This document shows positions 5,739 through 20,877 of a DNA stretch of 25,046 nt, piece by piece. The notes beneath the pieces are model-generated. The model was not told where the DNA came from. It did not search any database and worked only from the letters and a program-made list of their open reading frames with translations. Source of the DNA: Chloroflexota bacterium (lineage in GTDB: Bacteria; Chloroflexota; Limnocylindria; Limnocylindrales; CSP1-4); the NCBI GenBank assembly GCA_021789355.1, contig JAJYJR010000018.1:1-25046 (forward strand), read 5' to 3'. Each line of letters begins with the position of its first letter. The stretch's first letter is position 1. A program made the translations under genes and the position numbers.

Positions 5739-6335
5739 TTACGCGCGGATCTCCGCCAGGACGCGATCGCGGTACTCGGTTGGGCTGAACTGCCAAGCGC
5801 TGTAGTGCGTCACTTCGATGATGGATCCTGTGTACCAGGCGGGGTCGACATACTTGCGAGCGAGCCGGGCGGTCAGCCCACCGAAGGCGATCAGCGTCGG
5901 CGGTGGGCCGCCGAGGTCGTCGAGCTGCTCTCGCAGTCGGGGCAGGCTCTGATCGACGAGAGCCGAGCTGATCGACACGTTGCGAGCAACGACCGATGAG
6001 TCGCGGTCCAAGGTCACCAGCAGGTCGGTCATGTAGGCGCCCCAGTACGGAGTGCCGGCGAAAGCGAGCGCGATCCTGTAGTCGTGGCCTCGCCCGCGGT
6101 TCAGTTGGTGGAAGTTGCTCAGCGGTCGCTCGATCTCGAACCCGGACTGGTTGAGGCCGAGCATCACGACATCGTTGCGGAGCATCCCCAGCAGACCAGG
6201 GTTCTTGTCCGGGTCGAGGATGTCGGGGTCGGCGACCCAGGCCCGACTCTTCGGGCGCGGTTGGGCCCACACGGCCCAACTCCCGACCTGTCCGTGCTTG
6301 GCCTTGATCCGCTCGAACGTGTCCTTGTCGATCAT
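5739..6335 (-). CDS. Conserved protein with uracil-DNA-glycosylase-like features, 198 aa
   Basis: Starts at ATG 6335 (MIDKDTFERIKAKHGQVGSW). The segment VVMLGLNQSGFE (about residues 56-67) resembles the GxNPS/GLNPG active-site strand of the MUG/TDG-like branch of the uracil-DNA glycosylase superfamily. GTPYWGAYMTDLL follows, TLIAFGGLTARLARKYV fits a core Rossmann-like strand and helix, and THYSAWQFSPTEYRDRV occupies the place of the C-terminal His-Pro-Ser loop. These are motif resemblances by eye. The family could be a catalytically altered relative, and residues such as NFHQ may be its own signature. If correct it would recognise damaged bases or a nucleotide. The ribosome binding site is weak, and a TATAGA hexamer lies 16 bases before the start, so the mRNA leader could be very short. 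Confidence 0.7.
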   Translation of the reverse strand: MIDKDTFERIKAKHGQVGSWAVWAQPRPKSRAWVADPDILDPDKNPGLLGMLRNDVVMLGLNQSGFEIERPLSNFHQLNRGRGHDYRIALAFAGTPYWGAYMTDLLVTLDRDSSVVARNVSISSALVDQSLPRLREQLDDLGGPPPTLIAFGGLTARLARKYVDPAWYTGSIIEVTHYSAWQFSPTEYRDRVLAEIRA

Positions 6336-6490
6336 CGCCGGCGGAAGTCTATACGTTCGATCAGGAGCGCATTCTCGCCATCGACCGCGGATCTCAGCTC
6401 AGGCGGATGCCTCCGCGGGTCGGTCTCGCCAGTGGCTCGGCGGGGTCGAGGAGGCCCGGTCCTGGCCGTGCGTCAACGCCCCCCGCGTGC

Positions 6491-8911
6491 TCAGCAAGCA
6501 CGTGGCTGCTCGATACCGGCGCAAGAGCGGGACGACCCGAACGCCAAGACCTTCGTCGAGCAGGGCCCGTCCGGCACAGCCCCGCCGGCTCCGGCTCGCG
6601 GTCGGCCCGCGGTCGGCTCGACGGCAGACACGGCTGCCGCCCAGCACGGAGCGGGGCGAGTCTCGGCGAGCACGCAATAGCCCCGATGGGGAGGCGACCG
6701 GGGCTCCTCATGGCGAGATCGTTGGAGCGAGTAGTCGACGATGACGGGTGCGCTGCGGTCGAGGACAGGAGCGATCGCGTCGAGGGCCCCCCGAGGATCC
6801 CGGTCCGCGAGGCAGATAGCGGCGAGCGCGATCCTCGTCTCCCCAAACCGGAGGTCCGCGTCGGATGCAGGCGTCAGCAGCGCTCGGGCTCGTGCCGTGT
6901 CGCCCAGCCGCGCGAGGGTCTGCGCCGCGAGGGCGCGGGCGGCGATTGCCAGGGGATCGGGCGCGACCAGCACGGACTGGAGCCGCTGTGCCTCGGCGAA
7001 CTCGGCGACCGCGTCGCTCGGCCGCCCTTGGCCGAGACGCTGGAGTCCCCGGCTGTACCGCACGAGGATTTCCTTCGTGGGCTCCACGTTGGGACGCAAC
7101 GCCCGCTCCGCGCGATCGAGCCAGGTCTGGGCTTCGTCCACCCGGCCCTGCAACACGTCGGCCGCGCCGATCGTCGCCAGCAGCATGGGAACGACGGGCT
7201 CCGAAAGCCACCCGTACCGCTCGAGGATGGCCAGCGCCTGCATCGCGAGGTCGCGGGCCGCGGTGATCGAATGCCGAGCCACGGCCACGGCGAGATGCGC
7301 GAGACAGCCCTGTTCCACATAGGGCCGTCGGATTCGGCGCGCGAGATCAGCCGCTTCGCGCAGGTGGCGCTCTGCCTCGTCGGGTATCCCCGCCCAGACC
7401 TCGACGATGCCGAGACTCATGAGGGCGACGGCGTGCAGGTCGTTCGCGACGGCGATCTGATTGACCGTCTCGACCGCTGTCGGCTCGACCAGCGCCGGCA
7501 CGTCGCGGACCGCCATGCTGTAGTCGCCGCGCCACCGGGCGAGCGTCAGGCGTGCGGCCGCGAGCATCGCCTCGAACGTCTGGCGCCGCTCCGCGGGCAC
7601 CTCGGATGCGCGCCGCTCGGCGAGGGCGAGGTACGAGATGACGGTGTCGAGGGAGGGTCGGATCACCTCGCCGTAGGCAAGGAACGCGGCGAGCTCCGGG
7701 TTGTCGAGGGCGTCTCGCGGAAAGGGCTCGAGCAGCGTGCCCACGGTCGCGAAGCTGCCGTCGAGCGCGATGCTGAACCCGTGCTGGCCGACCAGCGCGG
7801 CCGCGTAGGGCCAGTTCCCCGCAGCCTGCGCGTGGCGGATTGCCTCGATCGGGAAACCGTGCTCGGCATACCATGCGGCCGCCGTCCCGTGCAGCTGCGG
7901 AATCGCGCCCGGGTCCACGCGCCGGAGCTCAAGGCGAAGGAGATCGGCGAAGAGCGCGTGGTACCGGAACCACGAGCGCTCCCGGTCCATCGAGTGCACG
8001 AAGGCTCCGGCGTTCTCGAGCTCGAGCAGGGCCGCTTCATTGCCGTTCGATCCGAGAAGCTGGTCCGCGAGCTCGCCGTTGACGCGGTCGAGGATCGATG
8101 TGCGCAGCAGCAGCTGCCGCACCGGGTCAGGCTCGCGTTCGAGTACCTCGGCGAGCAGGTAGTCCGCCACGCTCCGCTCGCTGCCGGAGAACTCCTCCAC
8201 GAAGCGCTCCGGGTCGGGGTGGCCGGAGAGCGAGAGCGCGGCCAGACGGATGCCGGCCACCCAACCCTCGGTGCGGGCAAGGAGCGCCGCAGCGGCGCTG
8301 TCGGAGAGCTTCACGCCGGACGCCGCGAGGAGCTGGCGCGCCTCGTCGAGCTGGAATCGCAGATGCGAAGCGCGAACCTCGGTGAGCTCGCCGGCCAGGC
8401 GGAGTCGATGCAACCCGAGCGGCGGGTCGTGCCGGGTGGACAGGACGACGCGCAGCGGGGGCGGGCGCCGGGACAGCAGCAGCTCGAGCTGTGCCAGGGT
8501 GGCCGGCTCGAGCAGCTCGTGCAGGTCGTCGATGACGAGCAGGACGGGTGTGTCGAGCTCCCGCGCGCCGTCGACGATGCGCTCGACGACGACGTCGCCG
8601 TCGAACCCGGGCGCCGGCCCGAGGTCGCCGATCGGCCCGTGCGGACCCGCCGCGCGTCGCAGCGCCTCGACGACCGAGAGCCAGAACCGCTGCGCGTCGC
8701 GCTCGTCGCGCTCGACGGCGATCCACGCTGTGCGACCGCGCAGACCGGTGCTGTCGATCCAAGAGCGGAGCAGCACGGTCTTGCCGCTTCCGGCAGGCGC
8801 GGACACGAGGGTCACGCCGCCTGCATACCCCGCCGAAAGCCGCTCGAAGAGTGCAGCCCGCGCCACGAGCGACGGCACGGCCACGGATGCGGACCGCTCG
8901 GGAGCGCCCAT
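6491..8911 (-). CDS. MalT-type (LuxR-family) STAND ATPase regulator lacking its HTH; C-terminus probably decayed
   Basis: 806-aa frame starting at ATG 8911. It has the order of MalT-like signal-transduction ATPases: an NTPase with Walker A (SAPAGSGKTVLLRSW, residue about 37) and Walker B (LLVIDDLHEL), a winged-helix/arm region (RTEGWVAGIRLAAL; RYHALFADLLRLEL), then TPR-like helical repeats from about residue 360 to 715. Family homology fades after DRSAPVI (near base 6745). The last ~80 residues are Arg/Pro/Ser-rich and unlike the family. The C-terminal LuxR-type HTH expected (LSESE...VNTVRTH) is absent in all three minus-strand frames down to 6336. A neighbouring frame contains LLDPAEPLARPTRGG, which resembles the linker that normally precedes that HTH, just before homology ends. 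Frameshift plus loss of the DNA-binding domain is likely, so it may be a pseudogene. Confidence 0.8.
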   Translation of the reverse strand: MGAPERSASVAVPSLVARAALFERLSAGYAGGVTLVSAPAGSGKTVLLRSWIDSTGLRGRTAWIAVERDERDAQRFWLSVVEALRRAAGPHGPIGDLGPAPGFDGDVVVERIVDGARELDTPVLLVIDDLHELLEPATLAQLELLLSRRPPPLRVVLSTRHDPPLGLHRLRLAGELTEVRASHLRFQLDEARQLLAASGVKLSDSAAAALLARTEGWVAGIRLAALSLSGHPDPERFVEEFSGSERSVADYLLAEVLEREPDPVRQLLLRTSILDRVNGELADQLLGSNGNEAALLELENAGAFVHSMDRERSWFRYHALFADLLRLELRRVDPGAIPQLHGTAAAWYAEHGFPIEAIRHAQAAGNWPYAAALVGQHGFSIALDGSFATVGTLLEPFPRDALDNPELAAFLAYGEVIRPSLDTVISYLALAERRASEVPAERRQTFEAMLAAARLTLARWRGDYSMAVRDVPALVEPTAVETVNQIAVANDLHAVALMSLGIVEVWAGIPDEAERHLREAADLARRIRRPYVEQGCLAHLAVAVARHSITAARDLAMQALAILERYGWLSEPVVPMLLATIGAADVLQGRVDEAQTWLDRAERALRPNVEPTKEILVRYSRGLQRLGQGRPSDAVAEFAEAQRLQSVLVAPDPLAIAARALAAQTLARLGDTARARALLTPASDADLRFGETRIALAAICLADRDPRGALDAIAPVLDRSAPVIVDYSLQRSRHEEPRSPPHRGYCVLAETRPAPCWAAAVSAVEPTAGRPRAGAGGAVPDGPCSTKVLAFGSSRSCAGIEQPRAC

Positions 8912-9126
8912 GCCGCGTATCGTCGCACGCCCTGATTCCCCGGTGCACGCTCTGCTGACGCGGAGTCGGCGGGATCGTGTGACGCGCCCGCGGGCTTCCT
9001 GGGAAGTGGGCCGTGCCAGGAACGACGTGTCGCCGCGGCGGCCTCATTGCGCGCACGGCATCACCGGGCCAGACAAGGCACGCGCCGCGGACCACGCGCT
9101 GGATCGAGGGTGGTTCAGGCGAGACG

Positions 9127-9582
9127 TCAGCGAGGGGATGGCGGCGCGAACCACGCGGGCAGATCGGAGGGCGATGCGGCGGGGCGGCCGGTATCGAGCG
9201 GACGCGCAGTCTCCTGCGTCGGCGACACGGTGCCGTGCGGGAGGACCGGCGGGCTGAAGACGGTGATCATGCGCAGCGGGGTGACGGCGCGGTTGATGAG
9301 CTTGTGCGGGGTGCCCGCGCCCACGAAGTCGAGGTCACCCTCCTCCACGCCGAGGGTGAGGGTCCCGACCTGCGCCTCGCCGACACCATCGACGAAGACG
9401 AGCAGCTGGTCGGTGTGGGCATGCACGATCCTGCCCGTTTCTCCATCCGGCGGCAGCGCCATCACCACGATCTGCTCGTGCTCGCCCGTGTGGATGACAC
9501 GCATGAACGCGTTGTTCACCCGTGCCTCGGCGCGGATGTTCAGCCGCGCTGCCGCCTCCACGTCCATGGGGTAGCTGGTCAT
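9127..9582 (-). CDS. Cupin-domain protein
   Basis: 151 aa from ATG 9582, preceded by AGGAG. It is a single small beta-barrel. The first cupin motif is GRIVHAHTDQLLVFVDGVGE (metal ligands probably H54 and H56, plus an acidic or Gln residue near 58-59), and the second is GDLDFVGAGTPHKLIN (H93). About 35 residues at the C-terminus are Pro/Ser-rich and probably unstructured. Metal-binding cupins of this size act as small-molecule dioxygenases, isomerases or sensors; the substrate cannot be inferred. It lies 46 bp downstream of the DoxX-like gene on the same strand and is probably in its transcript, under the shared upstream element. Confidence 0.87.
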   Translation of the reverse strand: MTSYPMDVEAAARLNIRAEARVNNAFMRVIHTGEHEQIVVMALPPDGETGRIVHAHTDQLLVFVDGVGEAQVGTLTLGVEEGDLDFVGAGTPHKLINRAVTPLRMITVFSPPVLPHGTVSPTQETARPLDTGRPAASPSDLPAWFAPPSPR

Positions 9583-9628
9583 GACGGTGCTCCTGTCGTC
9601 TGCCGACCCTGGTCACGCGGACTCGGCG

Positions 9629-9994
9629 CTATCCGATCGAACGGCCAACGCCGACCACGATGGCTGCGGCAAGCAGGAGGAGGTTGAACCAGAGCTTCTC
9701 GCGCTCCCCCCGGCGCAGGTGCGTCCAGATCGCTCCGACCTGGACGGCTGCCAGGCCCCAGGCGGCGAGGGGTGCCAGAGGCGAGAGGATGCCGGTGGCC
9801 CACGGAACGATGATGCCGACCGCGCCTGCCACCTCCAGCGCGCCGACGAGTCGAACGGACGGCATCGGGGCCTCCTCGACCCAGCCCATGCCGGCGGCCA
9901 CCAACCGGTTTCGTGACGCGGCGAGCTTGGTGACGCCTGTTGCCGCGTACACCACGCCCAGCAGCGCGCTGAGGATCCAGAGCACGAAGTCCAC
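9629..9994 (-). CDS. DoxX-like membrane protein
   Basis: 121 aa from GTG 9994 (VDFVLWILSALLGVVYAATG), preceded by a strong AGGAGG-type site. A longer frame upstream begins with TTG and adds Arg/Ser/Pro residues unlike the family, so it was rejected. Four predicted helices carry DoxX-family landmarks: YAATGVTKLAASRNRLVAAGMGWVEEAPMPSVRLVGALEVAGAVGI (read in parts) and a last helix LWFNLLLLAAAIVVGVGR. Family members sit in the membrane and are linked to redox or thiosulfate/quinone chemistry in some organisms, but most are uncharacterised. It is preceded by a copy of the shared regulatory element and followed by the cupin gene. Confidence 0.85.
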   Translation of the reverse strand: MDFVLWILSALLGVVYAATGVTKLAASRNRLVAAGMGWVEEAPMPSVRLVGALEVAGAVGIIVPWATGILSPLAPLAAWGLAAVQVGAIWTHLRRGEREKLWFNLLLLAAAIVVGVGRSIG

Positions 9995-10083
9995 GGAGAT
10001 CTCCTCCTGTGTCGAGACATCCGGCCGGAGAGGGCGGTCCCCCGCCTCCGGGACGGCGTCAGGGCAACGCCCTGGCAGCCGGG

Positions 10084-10124
10084 AGCGTCCGTGCCGCGCG
10101 GATGACGCGACGTCGTCCGATTCG
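10084..10124 (-). promoter_or_regulatory. Shared composite element, copy 1 (DoxX-like/cupin)
   Basis: Read on the minus strand: CGAATC, then GGACGA, 7 bases, TCATCC, and GGACGCT with its last base at 10084, 16 bases beyond the end of the palindrome. It ends 89 bp before the DoxX-like start. It differs from the other copies by GA for GG in the first block. See the finding on the five-copy element. Confidence 0.7.
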
Positions 10125-10171
10125 ACGGATTTCGACGGACGCTGAATGAGTGGCGCCAAACGGCAGATCGA

Positions 10172-10567
10172 TCACTGCGCCGCCGGCTCGGGCTGATGCC
10201 AATGCCGCGCGTCCGCGCCACGGTGGGCTGCGAACCTGGGATGTCGCCGGGCGGCGAGGACCGCGACGCGGGACAGCGCGATCACGGCGACGCACGGCCC
10301 GACGAGCCGTGCGATCGTCGCATTGGGGGTTCCCGAGTACCCGAGCAGCGCTGGCGTCAGCGCGACCAGCAGGCCAAGCGCGACGTTGACGAGCTCGGGC
10401 GTCGGCTGATCGGGGTTCGCCAGCGACCAGATCCCGACCAGCGCGACGGCCGTCCCGCCGAGGAGGATGCCCCACAGGCGCACCCCGGAGGGCGTCACGC
10501 CCCACATCAGCAGCACGACGCCGAGGACGATGTTGGTCCAGTCGATCAGGGAATCCGGCGACTCCAT
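10172..10567 (-). CDS. SPW-repeat-like small membrane protein
   Basis: 131 aa from ATG 10567, with GGGAG about 8 bases upstream. It has four hydrophobic helices: IVLGVVLLMWGVTP, LWGILLGGTAVALVGIWSLA, ELVNVALGLLVALTPALLGY and TIARLVGPCVAVIALSRVAVL. The start 'DWTNIVLGVVLLMWGVTP' followed by a second related unit (ELVNVALGLLVALTPALLGY) has the repeat logic of SPW-type proteins (W-x-N-x-x-LG-xx-L...P), although the S-P-W triplet itself is not kept. The C-terminal tail is polar and His/Arg-rich. Function unknown; such proteins are common next to HdeD and stress genes. A strong hairpin separates it from hdeD upstream, and it lacks its own obvious copy of the shared element. Confidence 0.7.
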   Translation of the reverse strand: MESPDSLIDWTNIVLGVVLLMWGVTPSGVRLWGILLGGTAVALVGIWSLANPDQPTPELVNVALGLLVALTPALLGYSGTPNATIARLVGPCVAVIALSRVAVLAARRHPRFAAHRGADARHWHQPEPAAQ

Positions 10568-10605
10568 TGGTCAGCTCCCGTGCGTTGCGCCCCGACGTGA
10601 GAAAG

Positions 10606-10653
10606 GGCACCGACGCGGTCTCCCGGAACGTCCCAGAGATCCGCGTCGGTGCC
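10606..10653 (-). terminator. Intrinsic-terminator-like hairpin after hdeD
   Basis: Perfect 13-bp arms (GGCACCGACGCGG and its complement at 10641-10653) enclose a 22-nt loop that can extend the stem with TCTC/GAGA around one bulged base. On the minus strand it starts 45 bp after the HdeD stop and is followed by CTTTCT, a modest pyrimidine tail. It most likely ends the hdeD transcript before the SPW-like gene. Confidence 0.7.
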
Positions 10654-10697
10654 ATCCTCGTTCGGGGCCTCCTGACCCCACGCGGGGCGTTGTGCGA

Positions 10698-11285
10698 CTA
10701 GGCCGCGGACGCGGCCTTGTTGAGGTCCTTGCCGAGCTTGTCCAGGTCGTTGTGGATGGTGTGCAGGCGATAGGCGAGCCCGAGGTCCGAGACCCCGTAT
10801 GCCATGGCCCAGATGCCCACCAGCCACGCCAGCGTGACGAGGCCGCTGCCGGGGAAGATCAGGAGCAGTGCGCCGAATGCGATCGAGAGCAGGCCCCCGA
10901 GGGCCATCCAGAACTCGCCCGCGACGAGCGTCCGGACGCGCAGCGCGAAGACGACCTGCAGGATCCCGACGACGATCGCCCACACCGCGACCACGTAGAG
11001 GAGCGCGATCGCGGTGATGCCGGGCCAGAGGAACGTGCCGATCCCGGCCAGGATGCCGACGACGGCCATCGCGCCGACGGCCCACGGGTGGCTGCGGACG
11101 AGCACGTCCCGGCGCGCGAGCGCCACGAGCAGGGCGATGCCGTCGACGAGCGCGAAAGCGCCGAAGAGGATCACGAGCACCCCGAGCGTGATACCGGGCC
11201 ACGCGAACGTGAGAACCCCGAACACGATCGAGGTGACACCGAGGAGCGCGTAGAGCCAGGAGTCGCGGTTGATCTTGCTGAGCAT
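10698..11285 (-). CDS. HdeD-family (DUF308) membrane protein
   Basis: 195 aa from ATG 11285, with GGAGG upstream. The longer frame reaching 11540 runs through the intergenic region and its regulatory element, so it was not used. Six hydrophobic segments occur in three related pairs, each following the DUF308 pattern of a helix ending in 'FAWPGITLGVLVILFGAFAL', 'FLWPGITAIALLYVVAVWAI' or 'LIFPGSGLVTLAWLVGIWAM'. The soluble tail is short (DLDKLGKDLNKAASAA). HdeD in enterobacteria contributes to acid resistance; the role elsewhere is unknown. The gene is transcribed divergently from ftsH, and both directions carry a copy of the shared element. Confidence 0.9.
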   Translation of the reverse strand: MLSKINRDSWLYALLGVTSIVFGVLTFAWPGITLGVLVILFGAFALVDGIALLVALARRDVLVRSHPWAVGAMAVVGILAGIGTFLWPGITAIALLYVVAVWAIVVGILQVVFALRVRTLVAGEFWMALGGLLSIAFGALLLIFPGSGLVTLAWLVGIWAMAYGVSDLGLAYRLHTIHNDLDKLGKDLNKAASAA

Positions 11286-11327
11286 CGGACGAGTCCTCCA
11301 AAGCGGTGATGCGTGTTGTCGGGGGGA

Positions 11328-11369
11328 AGCGTCCGGTCCAACCGGATGAGGAGTCGTCACCCGATCCGG
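11328..11369 (-). promoter_or_regulatory. Shared composite element, copy 2 (hdeD)
   Basis: Read on the minus strand: CCGGATC, GGGTGA, 7 bases, TCATCCG, 3 bases, GG, 3 bases, GGACGCT. It ends 42 bp before the HdeD start. Spacing is identical to copies 1 and 5. Confidence 0.75.
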
Positions 11370-11492
11370 TGGAAACCGCGTCACCGGGTCCGTGCGCGCG
11401 CCGATCCGAGGTCTGTGCGCTCGACCGGCGCGCAGCGAGCAGGGACGTGTCGGCCGACACCGGAGTGTCCGGGATCCTGACGCGGGAATCGA

Positions 11493-11534
11493 CCGGATCG
11501 GACGAGGCTGCCTCGTCTGCCCATGCGCCAGCCT
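11493..11534 (+). promoter_or_regulatory. Shared composite element, copy 3 (ftsH)
   Basis: CCGGATC followed by GGACGA, 7 bases, TCGTCTG. GAATC precedes it at 11486. Within the site GACGAGG-CTG-CCTCGTC is a perfect inverted repeat. The distal RGACGCT block is poorly kept (CCAGCCT). It ends 37 bp before the FtsH start. Confidence 0.7.
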
Positions 11535-11571
11535 CCGCACGTACCGATCCGACGACAGGAGGCTTCCCGCA

Positions 11572-13785
11572 ATGACTGGTCAGGGGTCCGTGCCGAACCC
11601 GACCGCAGATGGAAGGCGGCCTGAGAATGCCGCCGCGACACCGCCCGAGCGAGGTGCGAATCCCGCCTGGGATGCGCGCGCCCCGGCCGGTTCGAGAGTC
11701 TCGAAGAGCACGTCTCCGGTGCCGACGGGCGCCGCCGACAAGCCGCCCTCTCCGAGGGTTCCCGGCTGGGCCAACTGGCTGGTCTTCGCCATCCTGCTTG
11801 CCTGGAATGCGTTGCTCTTCCTGCCCCTGGGCAGCTCCGCAGTCGCGCTTCCGTATTCGGATTTCCTCGCGCAGGTGCAGCAGGGCAACGTCAGCCAGGT
11901 CCAGTTCAACGGGCAGTCGATCTCTGGCGCCTTCCGCCAGGCGGTGACGTGGCCCCCGGCGGCGCCGTCGCCGGCCCCTGGCCAGACGTCCAGCGCCACG
12001 CCGGCGGCGCCGGCGCAGTCCGCGAGCTTCACGACGTTCACGACGGTCATGCCGCCGACGACGGACCCGCAGCTGCTCCCGCTGCTGCAGCAGGAGCACG
12101 TCACGGTCACGGCCGAGGACACCACGAGCTCGGGCGGGATCCTCGCGCCCCTGCTGTTCACGTTCGGCCCGACCCTGCTGCTGCTCGCGTTCTTTGCGTA
12201 CCTGGCTCGCCGGATGCAGCGCAGCGGTGGCGGGGTGCTCGGATTCGGCGGCTCGAAGGCACGGCTCTACGATCCCGAGCGGCCCTCGGTCACGTTCGCC
12301 GACGTGGCGGGCGAGGACGAGGCCAAGGTCGAGCTGCTGGAGGTCGTGGCGTTCCTCAAGGAGCCCGACCGCTACCGGAAGCTCGGCGCCCGGCTGCCGC
12401 GCGGCGTGCTGCTCGTCGGCCCGCCCGGCGTCGGCAAGACCCTCGTCGCCAAGGCAGTCGCCGGCGAGGCCCACGTTCCGTTCTTCAGCATCAGCGCCTC
12501 CGAGTTCGTCGAGATGTTCGTCGGGGTCGGTGCGTCGCGGGTCCGTGACCTCTTCGCCAAGGCCAAGGCGGCCGCGCCCGCCATCGTGTTCGTCGATGAG
12601 ATCGATGCCGTCGGCCGCCAGCGCGGCGCCGGCATGGGCGGCAGCAACGACGAGCGCGAGCAGACCCTGAACCAGCTGCTCGTGGAGATGGACGGTTTCG
12701 ACGAGAACTCCAGCGTCATCGTCATCGCGGCCACGAACCGCCCCGACGTCCTCGACCCGGCGCTCCTTCGGCCCGGCCGGTTCGACCGCCAGGTCACGCT
12801 CGGGTACCCGGACCGCGTCGGACGCGAGGCGATCCTCCGCATCCACGCGCGCGGCCTGCCGCTCGAGTCCGACGTCGATCTCGGGCTGCTCGCCCGTGCC
12901 ACCCCCGGCTTCTCGGGTGCCGATCTGGCCAATCTGGCCAACGAGGCCGCGCTCCTGGCGGCGCGCGAGGGCCGCACGACGGTCGGCCGCATGCAGTTCG
13001 AGGAGGCCATCGACAAGATCACCCTCGGCACGAAGCAGGCGGGCCTGACCGACGCCGACGAGCGTCGGCTCGTCGCCTACCACGAGGGTGGACACGCCCT
13101 CGTGGCGGCGCTCACGGCCGGCGCGGACCCGGTCCAGAAGATCACCATCGTCCCGCATGGCCGCGCCCTCGGCGTCACCGAGCAGCGGCCCGACGAGGAC
13201 CGGCGGAACTACTCGCGTGAGTACCTGCTGGCCCGCCTCGGCGTCATGCTCGGCGGCCGAGCGGCCGAGGAACTGGTGTTCGGCCAACCGACGACCGGCG
13301 CGGAGAGCGACCTGAAGGGTGCCACGAACCTGGCACGGCGCATGGTCGGGCTGTGGGGCATGAGCGACGAGCTCGGCCCGGTGTCCTACGGGGTCGGCGA
13401 GACCCATCCGTTCATGGGGCGCGAGGTCGAGGATGCCCACGAGTACGCCGAGTCGACCGCGAGCCGCATGGACGCCGCCGTCATCCGGCTCCTCGAGGAT
13501 GCGCGCGCACGCGCCACCGAGCTGCTGCGCAACCATCGTGCGACGCTCGATGCACTCGCCACGGAGCTGATCGAGAAGGAGCTGGTGACCGGCGAACGGC
13601 TGCGGGAAATCGTGGCCGAGACCGCCTCGGCCGAGGCCGCTGCCGCGCCCGCGGAGTCGACCACGGTCATGGCGGTGCCCGGGACCGTCGCGGCTGCAGC
13701 CAGCGTCGCTGCTGCCGGCGCAGTTCCGCAGCGCGGTGGCACGCCCCGGGTCGACACGCTCGTCCCCGCCCTCGGCGCCAGGTGA
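11572..13785 (+). CDS. ftsH: ATP-dependent zinc metalloprotease FtsH
   Basis: 737 aa from ATG 11572, with ACAGGAGG upstream. Membrane-anchored AAA+ protease that extracts and degrades damaged or regulatory membrane proteins. Order: an unusual Pro/Ala-rich cytoplasmic N-terminus of about 65 residues, TM1 (about 68-86), an extracytoplasmic domain with a Pro/Ala-rich insert, TM2 (about 188-208), the AAA domain with Walker A GPPGVGKT (283-290), Walker B VFVDEID (about 339-345), the FtsH pore motif region [14 protein letters not shown], and the SRH ([20 protein letters not shown]). The protease domain has zinc motif HEGGH (504-508) and a third ligand in [10 protein letters not shown]. The last ~50 residues are an Ala/Val-rich tail absent from E. 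coli FtsH. All catalytic residues are present. It is divergent from hdeD, with a shared-element copy upstream. Confidence 0.97.
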
Positions 13786-13790
13786 TCGAG

Positions 13791-13904
13791 ATGCCCGTGC
13801 CGGTCATCATCTTCGCCGCCTGCGCGGCGGCGATCGTCATTGCCCAGGCCGCGCTCGGCATCCGGTCCGGCTTCCAGCTCGGCGGGCGCCCGTTCGGCCA
13901 TTGA
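13791..13904 (+). CDS. Small single-helix membrane ORF after ftsH
   Basis: 37 aa from ATG 13791, or 40 aa from GTG 13782, which overlaps the FtsH stop as GTGA and would be translationally coupled. The peptide has one hydrophobic helix (VPVIIFAACAAAIVIAQAAL) and a short polar tail (GIRSGFQLGGRPFGH). Length and position suggest a membrane micropeptide that could associate with FtsH, but no family is recognised and random frames of this size are common in high-GC DNA. Confidence 0.35.
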   Translation: MPVPVIIFAACAAAIVIAQAALGIRSGFQLGGRPFGH

Positions 13905-13960
13905 TCCAGGGGCCGCCAGCCTCACCCGTACCTGGTCACGTGCGGAGAGCGCGGCGGCAG

Positions 13961-14257
13961 CTAACCCGCGCGCTCGAAGCGCCGCTTGGCCAGCTCCACC
14001 AGCCCGAGATGCGCCCCGACGTTGTCGGTGGCGAGCACCGCGCCCACGAGGATGAGCACGAGCGGGCTCGAGACCTGCGCGACGAGGATCGCGAGCCGGG
14101 TCCGGCGGGCGCCACCACCGATCGTGTTGGAGCCGTCCGCGGCGAGGCGGCCGGCTGCCTCGGCGCTCGTCAGGCCCGCGGGAGTCGGGGCGTCCGACGC
14201 CGCCTGCGTCGTCCCAGGGGCGATAGTTGCCGCCGTCCGGACGTCTGCCGACGACAT
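13961..14257 (-). pseudogene. P-type cation-transporting ATPase remnant (N-terminus joined to C-terminal tail)
   Basis: 98 codons from ATG 14257. Residues 27-75 match the N-terminal cytoplasmic domain and start of TM1 of P-type cation ATPases: GLTSAEAAGRLAADGSNTI, then RTRLAILVAQVSSPLVLILV. Residues 84-98 (LGLVELAKRRFERAG) resemble the last residues of MgtA/PMA-like P-type ATPases, which commonly end in LVE-x-x-KR-x-F. The actuator, the phosphorylation domain (DKTGT) and nearly all transmembrane helices are gone. This is best explained by an in-frame internal deletion of roughly two kilobases, with the junction near 14010-14030. It cannot be an ion pump; at most it could make a small membrane peptide. 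It lies between ftsH and the BI-1 gene, divergent from the latter. Confidence 0.65.
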
Positions 14258-14417
14258 GTCGTCGCAAGCGCAGCGGACGCGGGGCGATGTGACGCGCCGC
14301 CCTGGTAGCCACAACCCGCGGAGCACCGCGAGTGAGCGGCGTCTTCGATACCGGATTCGTCCAATGCGCAGCTAGGCACCCGACCGCGGTCGGCGACCCG
14401 GACCGCGACGGAATCAA

Positions 14418-14459
14418 CCGGATCGTGCGACGAGCGCTCACCCGCTCGCAGGAGAGGCT
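14418..14459 (+). promoter_or_regulatory. Shared composite element, copy 4 (BI-1 gene)
   Basis: CCGGATC, GTGCGA, 7 bases, TCACCCG, and AGAGGCT at 14453-14459, one mismatch from AGACGCT. GAATC precedes it at 14411. It ends 37 bp before the gene start, the same distance as at ftsH. The palindrome is weaker here than in the other copies. Confidence 0.6.
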
Positions 14460-14496
14460 CACCGTCGACAAGCAACCACGCTGGAGGTCAGTTCTG

Positions 14497-15210
14497 ATGC
14501 TTGGTGATCGATTCGGGAATCCGCCATCTGCTCTCTATCAGGAGCGCCAACCCCGGTGGGGAACCTCGGCCGAATCCGGCTTCCTGACCGCCGCGTACGG
14601 CTGGATGTTCCTGGCCCTGCTCACCAGCGCCCTGACGGCCCTGGTGACCCTCGTCATGCCGGGTGCGCTGGACTTCGTCGCGAACAACGGGCTCCTCTTC
14701 GTCGTGGCGGAGCTCGGCCTGGTCGTCCTCCTCAGCGCAGGTATCAACCGTATCGGTACGGCCATGGCGGCGATCATGCTGTTCGTGTTCGCGGCGTTGA
14801 CGGGCACCACGCTGGCGATGCTGCTGGCCGTCTTCACGGCCGAGTCGGTCATTGCCTCCTTCGTGGGCGCGGCAGCCATCTTCGGTGTCGCCGCCCTGTA
14901 CGGGGTCACCACGGGACGCGACCTGACAGGCCTCGGAGGGATCCTGTTCGCGGGACTGATCGGGATCGTCATTGCCTCGATCGCCAACCTCTTCGTCGGC
15001 GGAGACCAGCTGAGCTGGATCATCGGCGTGATCGGCGTGCTGCTGTTCACCGGGCTCACGGCCTATGACGTCCAGCGTTTCAATGCGGGCCGGGTCGCCG
15101 GCGTCGCGAACCGCGAGAACGCCGCCGTGTTCGCCGCGCTCTCGCTGTACCTCGACTTCATCAACCTCTTCGAGATGCTGCTGCGGCTCACGGGGTCGAG
15201 GCGTCGCTGA
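14497..15210 (+). CDS. Bax inhibitor-1/YccA family membrane protein
   Basis: 237 aa from ATG 14497, preceded by GGAGG at 14483. The frame upstream of this ATG crosses the regulatory element and is not coding. Seven predicted helices follow a polar N-terminus (YQERQPRWGTSAESGFLTAAYGWM read in parts). Typical BI-1 features are the start of TM1 'AYGWMFLALLTSALTALV', an internal 'VTTGRDLTGLGGILFAGLIGIV', and the terminal 'LTAYDVQRFN', followed by a last hydrophobic segment 'ALSLYLDFINLFEMLLRLTG'. Bacterial relatives such as YetJ act as pH-sensitive calcium leak channels, and YccA binds and restrains FtsH in E. coli. The nearby ftsH gene sharing the same upstream element makes a functional link with FtsH plausible (inference). 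Confidence 0.92.
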   Translation: MLGDRFGNPPSALYQERQPRWGTSAESGFLTAAYGWMFLALLTSALTALVTLVMPGALDFVANNGLLFVVAELGLVVLLSAGINRIGTAMAAIMLFVFAALTGTTLAMLLAVFTAESVIASFVGAAAIFGVAALYGVTTGRDLTGLGGILFAGLIGIVIASIANLFVGGDQLSWIIGVIGVLLFTGLTAYDVQRFNAGRVAGVANRENAAVFAALSLYLDFINLFEMLLRLTGSRRR

Positions 15211-15338
15211 GGTCCGCGGGCGGGACCGGCGGGGGCAGCAACCGGCGCCGTGTCGCCTCGAACGCGAGCATCGGCTCTGGCGCCGTCAATATCCGCGGAG
15301 TTCCCCAGGGCGATGACTTTCAGCAAGCGCTGAATCGG

Positions 15339-15380
15339 CCGGATCGGATGAGGCGGAGTCATCCGTCTGGGCGAGACGCT
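15339..15380 (+). promoter_or_regulatory. Shared composite element, copy 5 (EAL gene)
   Basis: CCGGATC, GGATGA, 7 bases, TCATCCG, 3 bases, GG, 3 bases, AGACGCT. The palindrome is perfect here. GAATC precedes it at 15332. It ends only 10 bp before the annotated ATG of the EAL gene, leaving no room for a ribosome binding site. Confidence 0.75.
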
Positions 15381-15390
15381 GACGACCATC

Positions 15391-17814
15391 ATGAGCGAAA
15401 CGAATGCGGCGGCCGTCCCGCCGGGTGACGAACCAGAAGTCATGTCCCCTCGGGCGACCCTCGAGGAAGGCCTTGAACGGATGCCCCTCGGGTTCTTCAC
15501 CCTTGACCAGGGGGGGCGCGTCGAGTTTGCGAACGCGGCGGCCCTTGCACTGGCCGCCGGTCTGACGCTCAGGGCAGCTCGCGGTCGGCGGCTTCGCGAC
15601 CTGTTCCCCGAGATGAGTCCGGCGAGTCTGGATGCCGCCTTCTCGGCCATCTCGTCGGGACACATCGTCGAATCCGAGATGTACTTCACTCCGGAAGACC
15701 GATGGGTCAGCGTCCTCGGCTGCCCGACGTCGACGGGGGCGGCCGTCTTCGTGCGCGACATCACCGACCAGCATCGCGCGCAGCAGCAGGCCATGGAGCT
15801 GGGGGCGCTCGTGCGGGGCTCGCTCGACGCGATCATGGACCCCTTCGCAATCAGCCGTCCCCTCCGTGACGCCGAAGGGCAGATCGTCGATTACGATCTG
15901 GAGTACCTGAACAGATCCGCCCGCGGATGGGCCGGCCTGGACGACACGGAGCTCTCGGGCCGACGGTGCCTCGAACTGCTGCCCGCCTTGCAGTCGACGG
16001 GCCTCTTCGATGCGTTTCGCCGCGTGGCGGAGACCGGCGAGCCTCTTCAGCTGACGGCCTTCCCGTACTCGGACCGAGCCGCGGGCGAGCACAGCATCTC
16101 TGGGGTATTCGATCTGCAGTCCCTGCGATTCGGTGATCGCCAGCTCACGATCTGGCGCGACGTGACCGAGCGCGAACGCTCGCGTGCCGAACGCGAGCGG
16201 CTGGCGAGCGCCGTGGACCAGACACCGGATGCCGTGGCGATCACAGGCCCCGAGGGCATCCTCGTGTACGTCAACCGCGCATTCGCGGTGCTGCTCGGCG
16301 AGGACGCCGGTGCACTCGTTGGACGGCGCGCCGCCGAGATCGCCCCACGCGTCATCGGCCGCGCCGCGCTTGAGGAACTCGCCCGCGAGGTGCGCGGCGG
16401 GCCCTGGCTGACGGAAGTCGACGTTGCCACACCGGACGGAGCGCGCCGCCGACTTCTTACCACCGTCGCCCCGATGCGCGATCCCGACGGCTCGCTCACG
16501 GCCTATCTGACCGTGTGCCGCGACGTCACCGAGCTGCGGGCAGCCCAGGCGCGGCTCGCGCACGACGCACAGGTTCGGGCCGTTCTCATCGAGACGGTCA
16601 CGAGCATCGGGCCCGATAGTTCGTTGCGCGAGGCCGCGCAGCGTGTCTGCGAGGCCCTCGTCACACTGCCCGGCATCGACGGAGCGGCCGTGGAGGCGTT
16701 CGTCGGCGAGACGGACGTCGAGGTGATTGCGCGAACCGCTCCGCCAATGCGTCATCCGAGCATCCCCGGCGAGCGCATCGAGCCCGAGCGTGCGCGCTAT
16801 CTGCGCGAGCGCGCCGGGCATGGGGCGTGGGCGGAATCCTGGGAGCCCGGAGCGCCGCGGCACGGCCGGACGCCACGAGGTCGCGAGGGCCTTCGCGCGG
16901 CGGCCTACGGCCCGATCGTCCACGACCATCATGTGGACGGCATCCTCAACATCACCACGGCGGATCCCGAGTTCGCCCGCGCCCTCCTCGACGCGATGCC
17001 CGATGTGCTGGCCCTCACCGCGACCACGAGCGCGCTGCTCGCCGAGCGGCTGCACGCGTACCGACGCGGGATCGACGTCCGCGAGCGGATCGAGCAACTT
17101 CTCGCGAGCCGTGCGTTCCATCCCGTGTTCCAGGTCATCGTGGACCTGGGAACACGGGAGGCCGTCGGCTACGAAGCGCTGACGCGCTTCGACTCCGGTG
17201 ACCGGCCCGATCTCGTGTTCGCCGACGCCTGGTCGGTCGGGCTGGGCGCCGAGCTCGAGCTGGCCACCGTCGAGCGTGCGGTCAACGCTGCCCGCTCGGC
17301 GCTGCCGCCCGGCCTCTGGATCGACATCAACGTGTCACCGCGCCTGCTAGTGGAGCTCCCCGGGTTGGGCGAGGTGCTGTCCGAGGCGGGACGGCCCGTC
17401 GTGGTCGAGATCACCGAGCACGAGGCAGTGGGCGACTATAGGGCGGTCCGAAAGGCGGTGCGCGGGCTCGGGCGCGACGTGCGTCTGGCGGTCGACGACG
17501 CGGGCGCCGGCGTCGCGAACTTCGGCCACATCATCGAGCTCAAGCCGGACCTCGTGAAGCTCGACATGAGCCTCGTGCGGCGCGTCAACGCCCACCTCGG
17601 GCGCCAGGCCCTCGTGATCGCGATGCGCCACTTCGCGCGGAGCGCGGGGTGCCGGCTGGTGGCCGAGGGAGTGGAGACCGAACTCGAGGCGGCCACGCTC
17701 GAGAAGCTCGGCGTGGAGTTTGGCCAGGGGTTCCTGTTCGGGCGACCCGGGCCAATGTCGGTGGACGTGCGCAAGCGAAGGCGCATTGCCCCCGGGCGGG
17801 GTACCGAAGCGTGA
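15391..17814 (+). CDS. PAS-PAS-PAS-GAF-EAL protein (probable c-di-GMP phosphodiesterase)
   Basis: 807 aa, soluble, no membrane segment. Order: PAS 1 (about 25-130, ending FVRDITDQHRAQQQ), PAS 2 (about 135-260, ending IWRDVTERERSR), PAS 3 (about 265-390, ending VCRDVTELRAAQ), a GAF-like domain (about 395-540) and an EAL domain (about 565-795). EAL catalytic positions are kept: YEALTRF (594), INVSP, VEITEHE, VDDAGAG, KLDMS, AEGVETE and GQGFLFG. There is no GGDEF domain. It therefore probably hydrolyses c-di-GMP in response to a small ligand, light or redox signal. ATG 15391 has no ribosome binding site and lies 10 bp after the shared element; the in-frame ATG at 15442 (MSPRATLEEG) keeps all domains and may be the real start. 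Confidence 0.93.
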   Translation: MSETNAAAVPPGDEPEVMSPRATLEEGLERMPLGFFTLDQGGRVEFANAAALALAAGLTLRAARGRRLRDLFPEMSPASLDAAFSAISSGHIVESEMYFTPEDRWVSVLGCPTSTGAAVFVRDITDQHRAQQQAMELGALVRGSLDAIMDPFAISRPLRDAEGQIVDYDLEYLNRSARGWAGLDDTELSGRRCLELLPALQSTGLFDAFRRVAETGEPLQLTAFPYSDRAAGEHSISGVFDLQSLRFGDRQLTIWRDVTERERSRAERERLASAVDQTPDAVAITGPEGILVYVNRAFAVLLGEDAGALVGRRAAEIAPRVIGRAALEELAREVRGGPWLTEVDVATPDGARRRLLTTVAPMRDPDGSLTAYLTVCRDVTELRAAQARLAHDAQVRAVLIETVTSIGPDSSLREAAQRVCEALVTLPGIDGAAVEAFVGETDVEVIARTAPPMRHPSIPGERIEPERARYLRERAGHGAWAESWEPGAPRHGRTPRGREGLRAAAYGPIVHDHHVDGILNITTADPEFARALLDAMPDVLALTATTSALLAERLHAYRRGIDVRERIEQLLASRAFHPVFQVIVDLGTREAVGYEALTRFDSGDRPDLVFADAWSVGLGAELELATVERAVNAARSALPPGLWIDINVSPRLLVELPGLGEVLSEAGRPVVVEITEHEAVGDYRAVRKAVRGLGRDVRLAVDDAGAGVANFGHIIELKPDLVKLDMSLVRRVNAHLGRQALVIAMRHFARSAGCRLVAEGVETELEAATLEKLGVEFGQGFLFGRPGPMSVDVRKRRRIAPGRGTEA

Positions 17815-18344: not shown

Positions 18345-19925
18345 TTACAACCGCGCCCTCGCCGTCCCGGTCAGGACGTCCATGCCCTGCCGATAGATCG
18401 CGGCCCGCGGGATGTCCGCCTTGGCGAGACGGTCCAGAACAGGCCGCACTGCGGCATACGCGTCCTCGGCGGTCGCCAGGAAGGCGGCGGCCCCATCGCG
18501 ATCGCCGTCGCCCTGCAGCATGAGGAGCTTCGCCGCGAGAGCGGCGATCCCCTCGCGCATCCCGACCGGGTCCACGCGGAAGGTGCCGGTCGAGGCGTCG
18601 CGCGAGACGACGCCGCGGTGCGCAAGGTCGGCGTACTGCGCGAGACGGCTGCGCGCATAGGTGTGCGACAGCCCCAACAGGGCGGCGCCAAGAACGGCCA
18701 CGGGGAAGGTGATGACGCTGTCGAGCATGTCGGCATCGACAGGCTCACCCATCGCCTGCAGCGTCCCGATGAGGTGGAGGCCCAGGGCGTCTGCCTTGGC
18801 CTCCTCGATGGCCGACTGGTGCGCTTCCAGCGCCTCCCGCACCGTGCCCTGCCCGTCGAGCGTGTGCTTGACGCCCAGGCCGTGCGCCACCTCGTGGAAG
18901 AGGACCAGCTGGAAGTACGCCTCGAAGGTGTAGCGCGCCCGCTGGTCGGGCGCGCACACGAGGTCGGCCATGAAGCGGTTGCGCCTCTCGAACGCGGCCC
19001 GCATCACGTTCCTGAGCTGCAGGCGCCGCGTCCCCCTGGCGAGCTGGACCTCCTCGTCGGCGGGGAGGTTGATCGCTGCAGGTGTGTCCGCACGCGCATC
19101 GCCGGCCAGGAAGACGGCGTCGTAGGCATTCAGATCCGAGTCGCTGCCGGGCATCTGCTGCTTGTACACGTCGGGCACGGGGAGCCGGCGCTGCAGCTCG
19201 GGCAGGAGCGCCGCGAGCCGATTCAGCCGCGTGCTCCACCCACGGTCCTTCAGCAGCACGATGCCCTCGTGGGCGGCCTTGACACCGAAGCGCGCGTCCT
19301 CGTACTGCTCGATGGGACCGATGATGATGTCGATCCCGTTCTCCTTCATGTCGAGCCAGGCGAGATCGCTCGCCCGGTAGTCATCGTCGAGGAGGGCGGC
19401 GGCGCGCAACTCCAGGTACCGGCGCAGGCCCGGATCCTCCGCCAGCTCGGCGGCCTGCCGCAGCTTCTCCGCGGCGCGTCCGAGCGGCGCGGCGAAGGCG
19501 ACGTGATAGGGGACCGCGACGAGCGCGCCGTGGGCGTCGCGGCGGACGAGCGTGTACGGGCTGCGGAGCGCGGCCGCCCGCTCGGGCGAGACTGCGCAGG
19601 CCGCCTCGAACTCCTCCTTGGTCATGTCGGAGGGATAGAACCCCGCCCCGGCAGGCTTCGGGCCGAACCCCGCGATGAAGGGGACGTTGTCGTCGCGCCG
19701 GTCCCAGGGGCCGTAGTGGATCTCGGCCAGGCGGCGCTGCTCGGGATCGGCGATCGAGGCCAGGAGCGCATCCCGGTCCCCGTACGCCTCCTGCCAGAAG
19801 ATCGCGTCCATCTCCCGTGCGGCGTCCATGAGGAGCAGCAGCATGGCCTGCTCCTGCGGCGTGAGCTGCGCATACAGCTCGGAGGTGAGGGGGACCTCGA
19901 CGTAGGCGGACAGGGGGACGGGCAT
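18345..19925 (-). CDS. M49-family (dipeptidyl-peptidase III-like) zinc peptidase
   Basis: 526 aa from ATG 19925 (MPVPLSAYVEVPLTSELYAQ), with GAGGTC upstream; no signal peptide, so cytoplasmic. The zinc site is HEVAH (344-348) followed by EEAKAD (374-379), giving ligands H344 and H348 plus a glutamate of the second motif. M49 enzymes classically have the hexapeptide HEXXGH. The pentapeptide HEXXH with EExKAD is the form known from Caldithrix abyssi DPP III and Nudix-linked relatives. NLPADEEVQLARGTRRLQLRNVM (read in parts) and FGVKAAHEGIVLLKD are further family blocks. It would remove dipeptides from short peptides, or may be an altered-specificity relative. It stands alone between two 65-bp repeats. 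Confidence 0.88.
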   Translation of the reverse strand: MPVPLSAYVEVPLTSELYAQLTPQEQAMLLLLMDAAREMDAIFWQEAYGDRDALLASIADPEQRRLAEIHYGPWDRRDDNVPFIAGFGPKPAGAGFYPSDMTKEEFEAACAVSPERAAALRSPYTLVRRDAHGALVAVPYHVAFAAPLGRAAEKLRQAAELAEDPGLRRYLELRAAALLDDDYRASDLAWLDMKENGIDIIIGPIEQYEDARFGVKAAHEGIVLLKDRGWSTRLNRLAALLPELQRRLPVPDVYKQQMPGSDSDLNAYDAVFLAGDARADTPAAINLPADEEVQLARGTRRLQLRNVMRAAFERRNRFMADLVCAPDQRARYTFEAYFQLVLFHEVAHGLGVKHTLDGQGTVREALEAHQSAIEEAKADALGLHLIGTLQAMGEPVDADMLDSVITFPVAVLGAALLGLSHTYARSRLAQYADLAHRGVVSRDASTGTFRVDPVGMREGIAALAAKLLMLQGDGDRDGAAAFLATAEDAYAAVRPVLDRLAKADIPRAAIYRQGMDVLTGTARARL

Positions 19926-20053
19926 CGGTCTGACCTCGTGTGCGCGGGGACGGGCGAACACGGTTGTCGCGGGGACGCGGGGTGCGCGGTGTGACACCGG
20001 CCGGGCGAGCATGCCGCGTCCCCGGGCGGGCGTCAAGGAGTCCGTCGCTCGGG

Positions 20054-20764
20054 TCACGCCTCGACGCCGGTTCGTGCCTTGGGCTCCCGGGCAGCCGCCG
20101 TCGGTCGTGCGCTGGCATACCACGCGAGCAGGTCGCGCACTTTGCCTCGTGCGCCCCCGCGTCCACCCGGGGGCGCCAGAAGCAGACTGTCCGCGGCCGC
20201 GAAGAACGGCCGCGCGGCCGGGACCGGCTCGATCTCGTACTCGCCGTCCTCGGTCACCTTGATCCGCTCGATCAGCATCCCGATGAGCTCACGAAGCTGG
20301 ACGGGGCTGGCCTTGTCGATGGCGGCGCGGAGCGACTCGACGACAGTAGCCACGGCGTCGAACGTGACGACCTTGTCGGGCTCGGGCAGCAGGACGAGCT
20401 CCGCCTTGGTCTCCTGCATCTTCGCCCGGTACTCGGGCGCCTCGATGTCGCCCCACTCGAACTGCTGCCTCAGGCGGTCGAGGCGCAGCTCCAGGCGGGA
20501 GCGCAGCTCGTCCGAGGCGCCGCGGGACGGGAGCGCCAGGCGGCGGCGTAGCTCGTTCCGGCTCGCCTCGATGATCGACGCCGGCAGGATGATGCGGCGC
20601 AGGCGGGCGAGGACGATCTGGTCCGCGTCCTTCGTGGCGATCGCCTGCCGCCCGCAGTCGCGGCAGAGGTAGTACATCCACTCGTTCCCACGCGACGATC
20701 GGGTCTGGCCGTGGAAGCGGCGCCCGCAGGCGCACTCGAGGATACCGGTAAGAGCTTCGGCCAT
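20054..20764 (-). pseudogene. Large serine recombinase, C-terminal fragment
   Basis: 236 codons from ATG 20764. It begins with the recombinase zinc ribbon (GILECACGRRFHG, then YYLCRDCGRQ), continues with a long charged coiled-coil-like helical stretch (ELRSRLELRLDRLRQQFEWG, then EYRAKMQETKAELVLL), and ends in KVRDLLAWYASARP. This matches the C-terminal half of large serine integrases and transposon recombinases. The N-terminal resolvase catalytic domain with the nucleophilic serine and the following Recombinase domain are missing: upstream sequence turns into the divergent lipoprotein gene. An alternative frame start at 21079 only adds Arg-rich shadow sequence. On its own it cannot catalyse recombination. 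Confidence 0.8.
20115..20179 (-). repeat. 65-bp repeat, copy B: inside the recombinase fragment 3' end
   Basis: Direct-repeat partner of 18060-18124, same orientation, 2055 bp apart, flanking the M49 gene. It encodes the near-terminal LAPPGGRGGARGKVRDLLAW and contains the perfect inverted repeat GCGCCCCC / GGGGGCGC. Confidence 0.75.
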
Positions 20765-20877
20765 TGCCGACGTTTCCGTGCCCGTCCCGGGACGCCGGGT
20801 CGTCCGGCGGCATCTGTGTGGTGGCGGGAGGCACACGTGGCGGTTGCCTCCGCCGGCGGAGCGAGGCAGGCGAGAGC

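Follow-up and report, generated by a model that had tools for sequence, protein, structure and literature searches.

Five copies of a three-half-site promoter element, probably of MalT type, would define a membrane and envelope stress regulon in a Chloroflexota bacterium

Contig JAJYJR010000018.1 of a Chloroflexota bacterium (assembly GCA_021789355.1; Limnocylindrales, CSP1-4), analysed here over positions 1 to 25,046 and referred to as the window, carries five copies of one composite regulatory element, upstream of genes for a DoxX-like protein, an HdeD-like protein, FtsH, a BI-1 protein, and a PAS-EAL protein. We propose, with a probability of roughly 0.77, that each copy is a MalT-type activator-dependent promoter and that the five promoters form one membrane and redox-envelope stress regulon. 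The activator would be a LuxR-type helix-turn-helix (HTH) protein of the MalT/LAL class, with a STAND ATPase, a TPR sensor domain, and a C-terminal GerE HTH. Upon activation by some ligand or stress, it would bind three half-sites, two of them in the palindrome TCNNCC-N5-GGRYGA (about -52 to -36) and the third, TCRYCC, on the promoter side (about -28 to -23). RNA polymerase would thereby be recruited to a weak -10, NANNNT, which reads GACGCT in most copies and has no proper -35. The regulon would encompass DoxX/cupin, HdeD-like/SPW, FtsH, BI-1, and PAS-EAL, that is, functions in membrane protein quality and redox/envelope stress. The anatomy of the element and its fixed register are conserved in other lineages, partly beside MalT-type genes. 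The original prediction, made from the letters of this stretch, had proposed a local regulon under one regulator or an alternative sigma factor, the regulator being a dimer and the outer blocks directional parts of a promoter. The single regulator, the directional parts, and the dimer are supported; the alternative sigma factor is not, since the block reads as a MalT-type operator with a weak -10.

Direct search of the window recovered all five predicted positions and strands, with identical spacing in 5/5 copies, and each copy is intergenic and points toward the next gene, as had been claimed. The 27-base core, CCGGATCGGRYGA-N7-TCAYCCG with up to three mismatches, gives exactly five matches in the window, which are these five copies; over 100 dinucleotide shuffles the mean count was 0.06, and five was never reached. 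A weight matrix built on the copies, and therefore scored on the same sites it was trained on, gives them 40.9-51.1, followed by 14.8 for the hdeD copy on its opposite strand and 7.4 for the next unrelated match.

Comparison of the five copies defines the element as TCNNCC-N5-GGRYGA (17 bp, two-fold symmetric), N7, TCRYCC, 10 nucleotides (nt), and NANNNT, with the third half-site exactly 7 nt past the palindrome on its promoter side (Table 1). All five palindromes match TCNNCCGNNTCGGRYGA, a pattern derived from these same copies, with one mismatch at most. The final hexamer is GACGCT at doxX, hdeD, and EAL, GAGGCT at BI-1, and CAGCCT at ftsH, where the last block had been reported as lost, and it follows NANNNT in fixed register in 5/5 copies. 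The predicted RGACGCT block stands as a promoter part, reread here as a weak -10. The inner palindrome GGATGA-N7-TCATCC, previously taken as the dimer site, corresponds to half-sites 2 and 3, and related genomes show TCRYCC-N5-GGRYGA as the primary one. Smaller details were revised as well: the first block of the doxX copy reads TCGAATCGG and not CCGGATCGG, and the GG block occurs in three copies and is missing from those of ftsH and BI-1. GAATC does precede three copies, but the TC that closes it, located two bases ahead of the block first described, is invariant in all five and belongs to the element. When NANNNT is taken as the -10, the start sites would lie 83 (doxX), 36 (hdeD), 31 (ftsH), 31 (BI-1), and 4 (EAL) nt before the start codons, those of ftsH, BI-1, and EAL having been chosen from the sequence and the list of open reading frames (ORFs); a simple gene scorer placed these three further downstream. 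The 3' end of the palindrome would then lie 35 nt from the +1. A simple sigma-70 consensus scan of 9600-15500 found no promoter, as expected, because such promoters have a poor -35.

The same architecture was found, in a tighter form, in actinobacterial lineages, to which the follow-up genome scans were directed, starting from G001, the genome of Micromonospora qiuiae that holds site L004. L004 was one of two matches in a composite scan of species-genome contigs; it is promoter-like and separates a BON-type gene, which ends there, from a DsbA-like gene that starts after it, the other match (L005, Hyphomicrobiales) being coding by eye. In Micromonosporaceae, 126 matches were found in 51/150 genomes and none with a reversed-pattern control, and a looser pattern matched 207/354 genomes, with 11 control matches in all (hand-counted). 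Outside this family, in an order of three genomes, two have sites (6 and 5 matches; 0 control). One other scan gave 17 matches in 16/61 genomes with 0 control, several of them not promoter-like by eye. Of three composite scans of viral contigs, one gave three matches, by eye inside genes, and two gave none.

In 40 Micromonosporaceae regions searched with the palindrome alone, 79 of the 87 non-coding sites have TC[AG][CT][CT] at exactly +7 on one side, compared with 0-7 of 87 at the other offsets from 0 to 19. These regions had been fetched by patterns containing the third half-site; among the sites untouched by any fetching pattern, 34/42 keep it at +7. Alignment of 88 distinct co-directional sites places A at +11 and T at +15 past the third half-site (77% each, with about 10% at most neighbouring places), and both letters recur at these two positions in each of the five window copies. 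Nothing else ties the window to the actinobacterial element as strongly as this common +11/+15 register.

In related genomes, to which the refutation test named in the original prediction was applied, the placement of the sites also follows that seen in the window, within regions all chosen because they hold sites and with gene calls from a simple scorer whose start codons are approximate. In 20 fetched regions, 28/28 sites lie outside genes and 23/28 are followed by a co-directional gene, in line with the predicted intergenic position and orientation. In 50 regions, from which coding sites were removed beforehand, 92 of the 111 sites left have a gene start no more than 320 nt ahead of them; the palindrome-only search of 40 regions found two further positions inside genes. 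The genes downstream of the Micromonosporaceae sites include those for BON, AhpC/TSA peroxiredoxin, DsbA/thioredoxin, and DUF2267 proteins (Pfam), as well as for an Hsp20-like protein by eye (L031). One site (L099) points at a DUF308 (HdeD-like) gene, with SCP2 also among the downstream genes, and another, outside the family (L148), is directed at an SfLAP-DUF308 gene pair adjoined by a MalT-type gene. DUF308 (HdeD-like) would be a target common to the window, L099, and L148.

Two arrangements in these regions were observed in passing. Outside Micromonosporaceae, two or three composites overlap or stand back to back in one intergenic region (L148:3540-3600 and L163:1490-1572). At four Micromonosporaceae peroxiredoxin/DsbA promoters (L074, L082, L093, and L009), only 6-7 nt separate the -10 from the ATG, so that the transcripts may be leaderless; the EAL copy of the window, with a predicted leader of 4 nt, is similar.

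MalT-type genes occur in 19 of the 40 Micromonosporaceae regions, comprising all 15 regions with a DsbA-like gene and four others (L094, L095, L100, and L101, with two such genes each), and Pfam recognised AAA_16, MalT-type TPR, and GerE in the four genes checked. Wherever upstream sequence was available in the DsbA regions (13/13), a palindrome stands at most 260 nt ahead of the MalT-type gene. The window has a MalT-like gene of its own, 1.2 kb from the doxX copy. Its identity to the relative P0122, a protein of 881 aa with a GerE domain, is 97% across P0122 residues 1-720 (window 8884-6725), and beyond 6725 the match is lost, so the window gene, in which no LuxR/GerE HTH was found, is either a broken copy or a misassembly. 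P0122 scores 272 bits against the NCBIfam model MalT PRK04841.1, below the cut-off of 537, and an alignment of 457 aa with E. coli MalT shows 28% identity; named MalT-like homologues come from Dormibacteraeota, Gaiellaceae, and others. A weak possible palindrome stands upstream of the window gene, with a chance of about 0.05 per such stretch and hence unproven, and is placed similarly to those of Micromonospora. At the broken end of the same gene, an Rfam c-di-GMP-II-GAG riboswitch match was observed, about 74 nt before an uncharacterised ORF of 198 aa.

Several observations weigh against this interpretation. The species-genome contig scan for the composite returned no relative from the phylum of the window itself, and the early and wide counts were weak. 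An early count gave 8 matches in 7/121 genomes versus 5 control matches, and is therefore not significant alone. The class-wide scan gave 11 matches in 10/246 genomes versus 2, in mixed contexts, several inside long frames, and these matches were left out of the counts; the phylum-wide scan gave 64 in 44/296 versus 22 (hand-counted), and in seven of its genomes besides G001 the matches look real (G624, G610), plausible (G687), inside genes (G637, G702, G650), or ambiguous (G712). At L145, with the same genes as L148 plus a GerE fragment, the site is directed at a divergent small ORF instead of SfLAP-DUF308. The five BON-only regions have no MalT-type gene and only 4/20 of the other regions have one; besides, genomes of this kind probably carry MalT/LAL genes commonly, which makes proximity alone a weak argument. 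Of the 13 sites upstream of a MalT-type gene, 12 have a third half-site that faces away from the gene, and autoregulation is therefore possible at most. Having lost its HTH, the window copy presumably leaves the role of acting regulator to an intact homologue encoded elsewhere. As for the letters, the window palindromes differ from TCATCC/GGATGA, the half-sites of the MalT motif known in Actinoplanes, at 4 (doxX), 3 (hdeD), 3 (ftsH), 4 (BI-1), and 2 (EAL) of 12 positions; for TCACCC/GGGTGA the mismatches number 2-5 of 12. Finally, as far as its main text goes, the article describing the Actinoplanes regulator (PMC7567727) does not contain the words 'EMSA', 'shift', 'footprint', or 'in vitro'.

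The alternative that survives best, even though we consider it unlikely, is that a different LuxR-HTH protein acts as the regulator, for instance a response regulator of the BldM/NarL type. Sites of BldM group I, TCACcCgnncGgGTGA, have identical half-sites (PMC4125116), and GerE domains share much of the recognition helix, as seen for the MalT-type ones, so that half-sites alone may not discriminate. The BldM hexamers are 4 nt apart, whereas the five window copies have 5 nt, the gap of the published Actinoplanes MalT motif. When the third half-site is included, the N4 form gives 2 matches in 2/150 Micromonosporaceae genomes versus the 126 in 51/150 of the N5 form, and the element is therefore MalT-type in its geometry. 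The presence of a MalT-type gene in 15/15 DsbA regions points the same way, although no systematic search was made for response regulators. The 16-bp BldM group I site itself, TCACCC-N4-GGGTGA, was rejected, all five copies being N5.

Far less probable is that the blocks represent the -35 and -10 of a promoter for an alternative sigma factor of the extracytoplasmic function (ECF) type, an idea suggested by their directionality, their fixed spacing, and the presence of GACGCT where a -10 would sit. The main block, however, is a two-fold symmetric 17-bp operator accompanied by a third copy of the half-site, which would be superfluous for a sigma factor, and conservation in the -10 is largely confined to A2 and T6. 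Deletion and overexpression have moreover linked a motif of this geometry to a MalT regulator (PMC7567727). Such a promoter was rejected, the upstream block being palindromic with a third half-site where a conserved non-palindromic -35 plus -10 was looked for.

Least probable of all is that the repeat is an RNA hairpin of a leader or a mobile REP-like repeat: GGRYGA-N7-TCRYCC could fold and the five copies lie within 5 kb, but the stem has mismatches by eye (C-A in doxX and in BI-1, T-C also in BI-1), the half-sites vary independently as R/Y, as protein sites do, the predicted start site lies downstream of the hairpin, which would therefore not be in the RNA, and fixed spacing to the -10 with unconserved gaps is unlike a mobile copy. 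At gathering score, the riboswitch mentioned above is the sole Rfam match in the window, with none at the elements. Two other geometries, HspR/HAIR-like (7-N7-7) and that of MerR spacers, were discarded, their letters and position relative to the -10 not fitting, and the CRP site, GTGA-N6-TCAC, has a spacing unlike that of the element.

The five putative MalT-type promoters are followed by the genes listed in Table 1. FtsH and BI-1/YccA cooperate in membrane protein quality control, and the HdeD-like, DoxX, and actinobacterial target genes are presumably envelope/redox stress genes. Named homologues of the BI-1 protein include P0044 (59% identical) and the more distant P0079 from Chloroflexi (47%); by these two, a Limnocylindrales-type Chloroflexota is the probable source of the window, though not firmly so. 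Among viral contigs no relatives of the HdeD-like and BI-1 proteins were found. Other ORFs of the window are a probable gene remnant between ftsH and BI-1, a peptidase-like gene, and an ORF resembling a recombinase.

Table 1. Element copies, candidate target genes, and other features of the window (start sites are predicted, taking NANNNT as the -10)
Feature	Position	Strand	Details
doxX copy	10084..10129	-	palindrome TCCGTCG-AAT-CGGACGA 10113-10129; third half-site TCATCCG 10099-10105; -10 GACGCT 10084-10089; predicted start site 10077
hdeD copy	11328..11373	-	palindrome TCCACCGGATCGGGTGA 11357-11373; third half-site TCATCCG 11343-11349; -10 GACGCT 11328-11333; predicted start site 11321
ftsH copy	11489..11534	+	palindrome TCGACCGGATCGGACGA 11489-11505; third half-site TCGTCTG 11513-11519; -10 CAGCCT 11529-11534; predicted start site 11541
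BI-1 copy	14414..14459	+	palindrome TCAACCGGATCGTGCGA 14414-14430; third half-site TCACCCG 14438-14444; -10 GAGGCT 14454-14459; predicted start site 14466
EAL copy	15335..15380	+	palindrome TCGGCCGGATCGGATGA 15335-15351; third half-site TCATCCG 15359-15365; -10 GACGCT 15375-15380; predicted start site 15387, 4 nt before ATG
DoxX_2 family gene	9629..9994	-	target of copy 1; Pfam PF13564 E 4.3e-22
Cupin gene, after doxX-like gene	9127-9582	-	Cupin_2
DUF308 (HdeD-like) membrane gene	10698..11285	-	target of copy 2; Pfam PF03729 E 1.8e-25; NCBIfam HdeD only 17.4 bits, cut-off 189
SPW-repeat-like gene, after HdeD-like gene	10172-10567	-	SPW 31.0 bits, slightly below cut-off 31.5
ftsH	11572..13785	+	target of copy 3; TIGR01241 754.7 bits, cut-off 600; Pfam M41
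BI-1 (Bax1-I/YccA-like)	14497..15210	+	target of copy 4; Pfam PF01027 E 2.3e-46; best NCBIfam FtsH modulator YccA, 38.2 bits, below cut-off 353
PAS-EAL protein (c-di-GMP phosphodiesterase-like)	15391..17814	+	target of copy 5; Pfam EAL E 4.9e-40, PAS_4 E 4.7e-39
MalT-like regulator gene (STAND ATPase + TPR)	6491..8911	-	no LuxR/GerE HTH found
Weak possible palindrome	8966..8982	+	third half-site absent; 2 mismatches; points away from MalT-like gene, 55 nt upstream of it
c-di-GMP-II-GAG riboswitch match	6409-6492	-	Rfam 48.5 bits, gathering 40
Uncharacterised ORF	5739-6335	-	198 aa
Short ORF between ftsH and BI-1	13961-14257	-	P-type cation ATPase N-terminal domain only; probably gene remnant
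Peptidase-like gene	18345-20123	-	Peptidase family M49 (dipeptidyl peptidase III-like), 44.8 bits, cut-off 21
Recombinase-like ORF	20054-21079	-	by eye like C-terminal part of large serine recombinase, apparently without catalytic part; no NCBIfam match

Soil bacteria probably have many MalT/LAL regulators, few of which have a known target set. More tentatively, and at somewhat less than even odds, we suggest that the window and the actinobacterial sites could belong to one cross-phylum system, in which STAND-type MalT/LAL activators and a three-half-site operator in strict register with the -10 would run a conserved envelope/redox regulon (HdeD-like, FtsH/BI-1, DoxX, BON, peroxiredoxin, DsbA, Hsp20, and DUF2267) in Chloroflexota and Actinomycetota. 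If true, a class known for the control of maltose and antibiotic genes would be in large part stress-sensing. The precision of the operator, with its two-fold palindrome, third half-site, and -10 register, makes it possible to scan any genome for it, and tying poorly understood membrane/redox stress genes to one regulator class across lineages would make their signal and function testable.

Among the open-licence literature searched, we noticed no account of such a regulon, whether from Chloroflexota or with stress targets of this kind, and three known systems offer the closest comparisons. BldM from Streptomyces, described as an atypical response regulator, has similar half-sites in its group I (TCACCC/GGGTGA), with a gap of 4 nt (16 bp) versus 5 nt in the window (PMC4125116). 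MalT from E. coli belongs to the same protein class as the proposed activator, and the core GGA(T/G)GA of its box, quoted as GGGGA(T/G)GAGG in PMC7567727, resembles the GGRYGA of the window. Nevertheless, in the intergenic region between malP and malT of E. coli no stretch comes closer to TCAYCC-N5-GGRTGA than three mismatches, and the targets in the window are not maltose genes.

The closest likeness is that to MalT (ACSP50_3915) from Actinoplanes sp. SE50/110, for which deletion and overexpression show the activation of a large genomic region (Droste et al. 2020, PMC7567727). Its regulon rises on maltose and consists of targets with poor annotation, of which ten resemble amino-acid metabolism, whereas those of the window are FtsH, BI-1, HdeD-like, DoxX, and EAL; the third half-site at +7 of the window element finds no mention in the text passages covered. 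Both systems nonetheless have a MalT-like gene nearby, that of the window without its HTH, and no maltose genes among their targets. The Actinoplanes motif, TCATCC-5nt-GGATGA, shares the 5-nt palindrome gap with the window element, and the distance between its 3' end and the mapped start sites is 34.4+/-1.0 nt, compared with 35 nt to the predicted start sites of the window.

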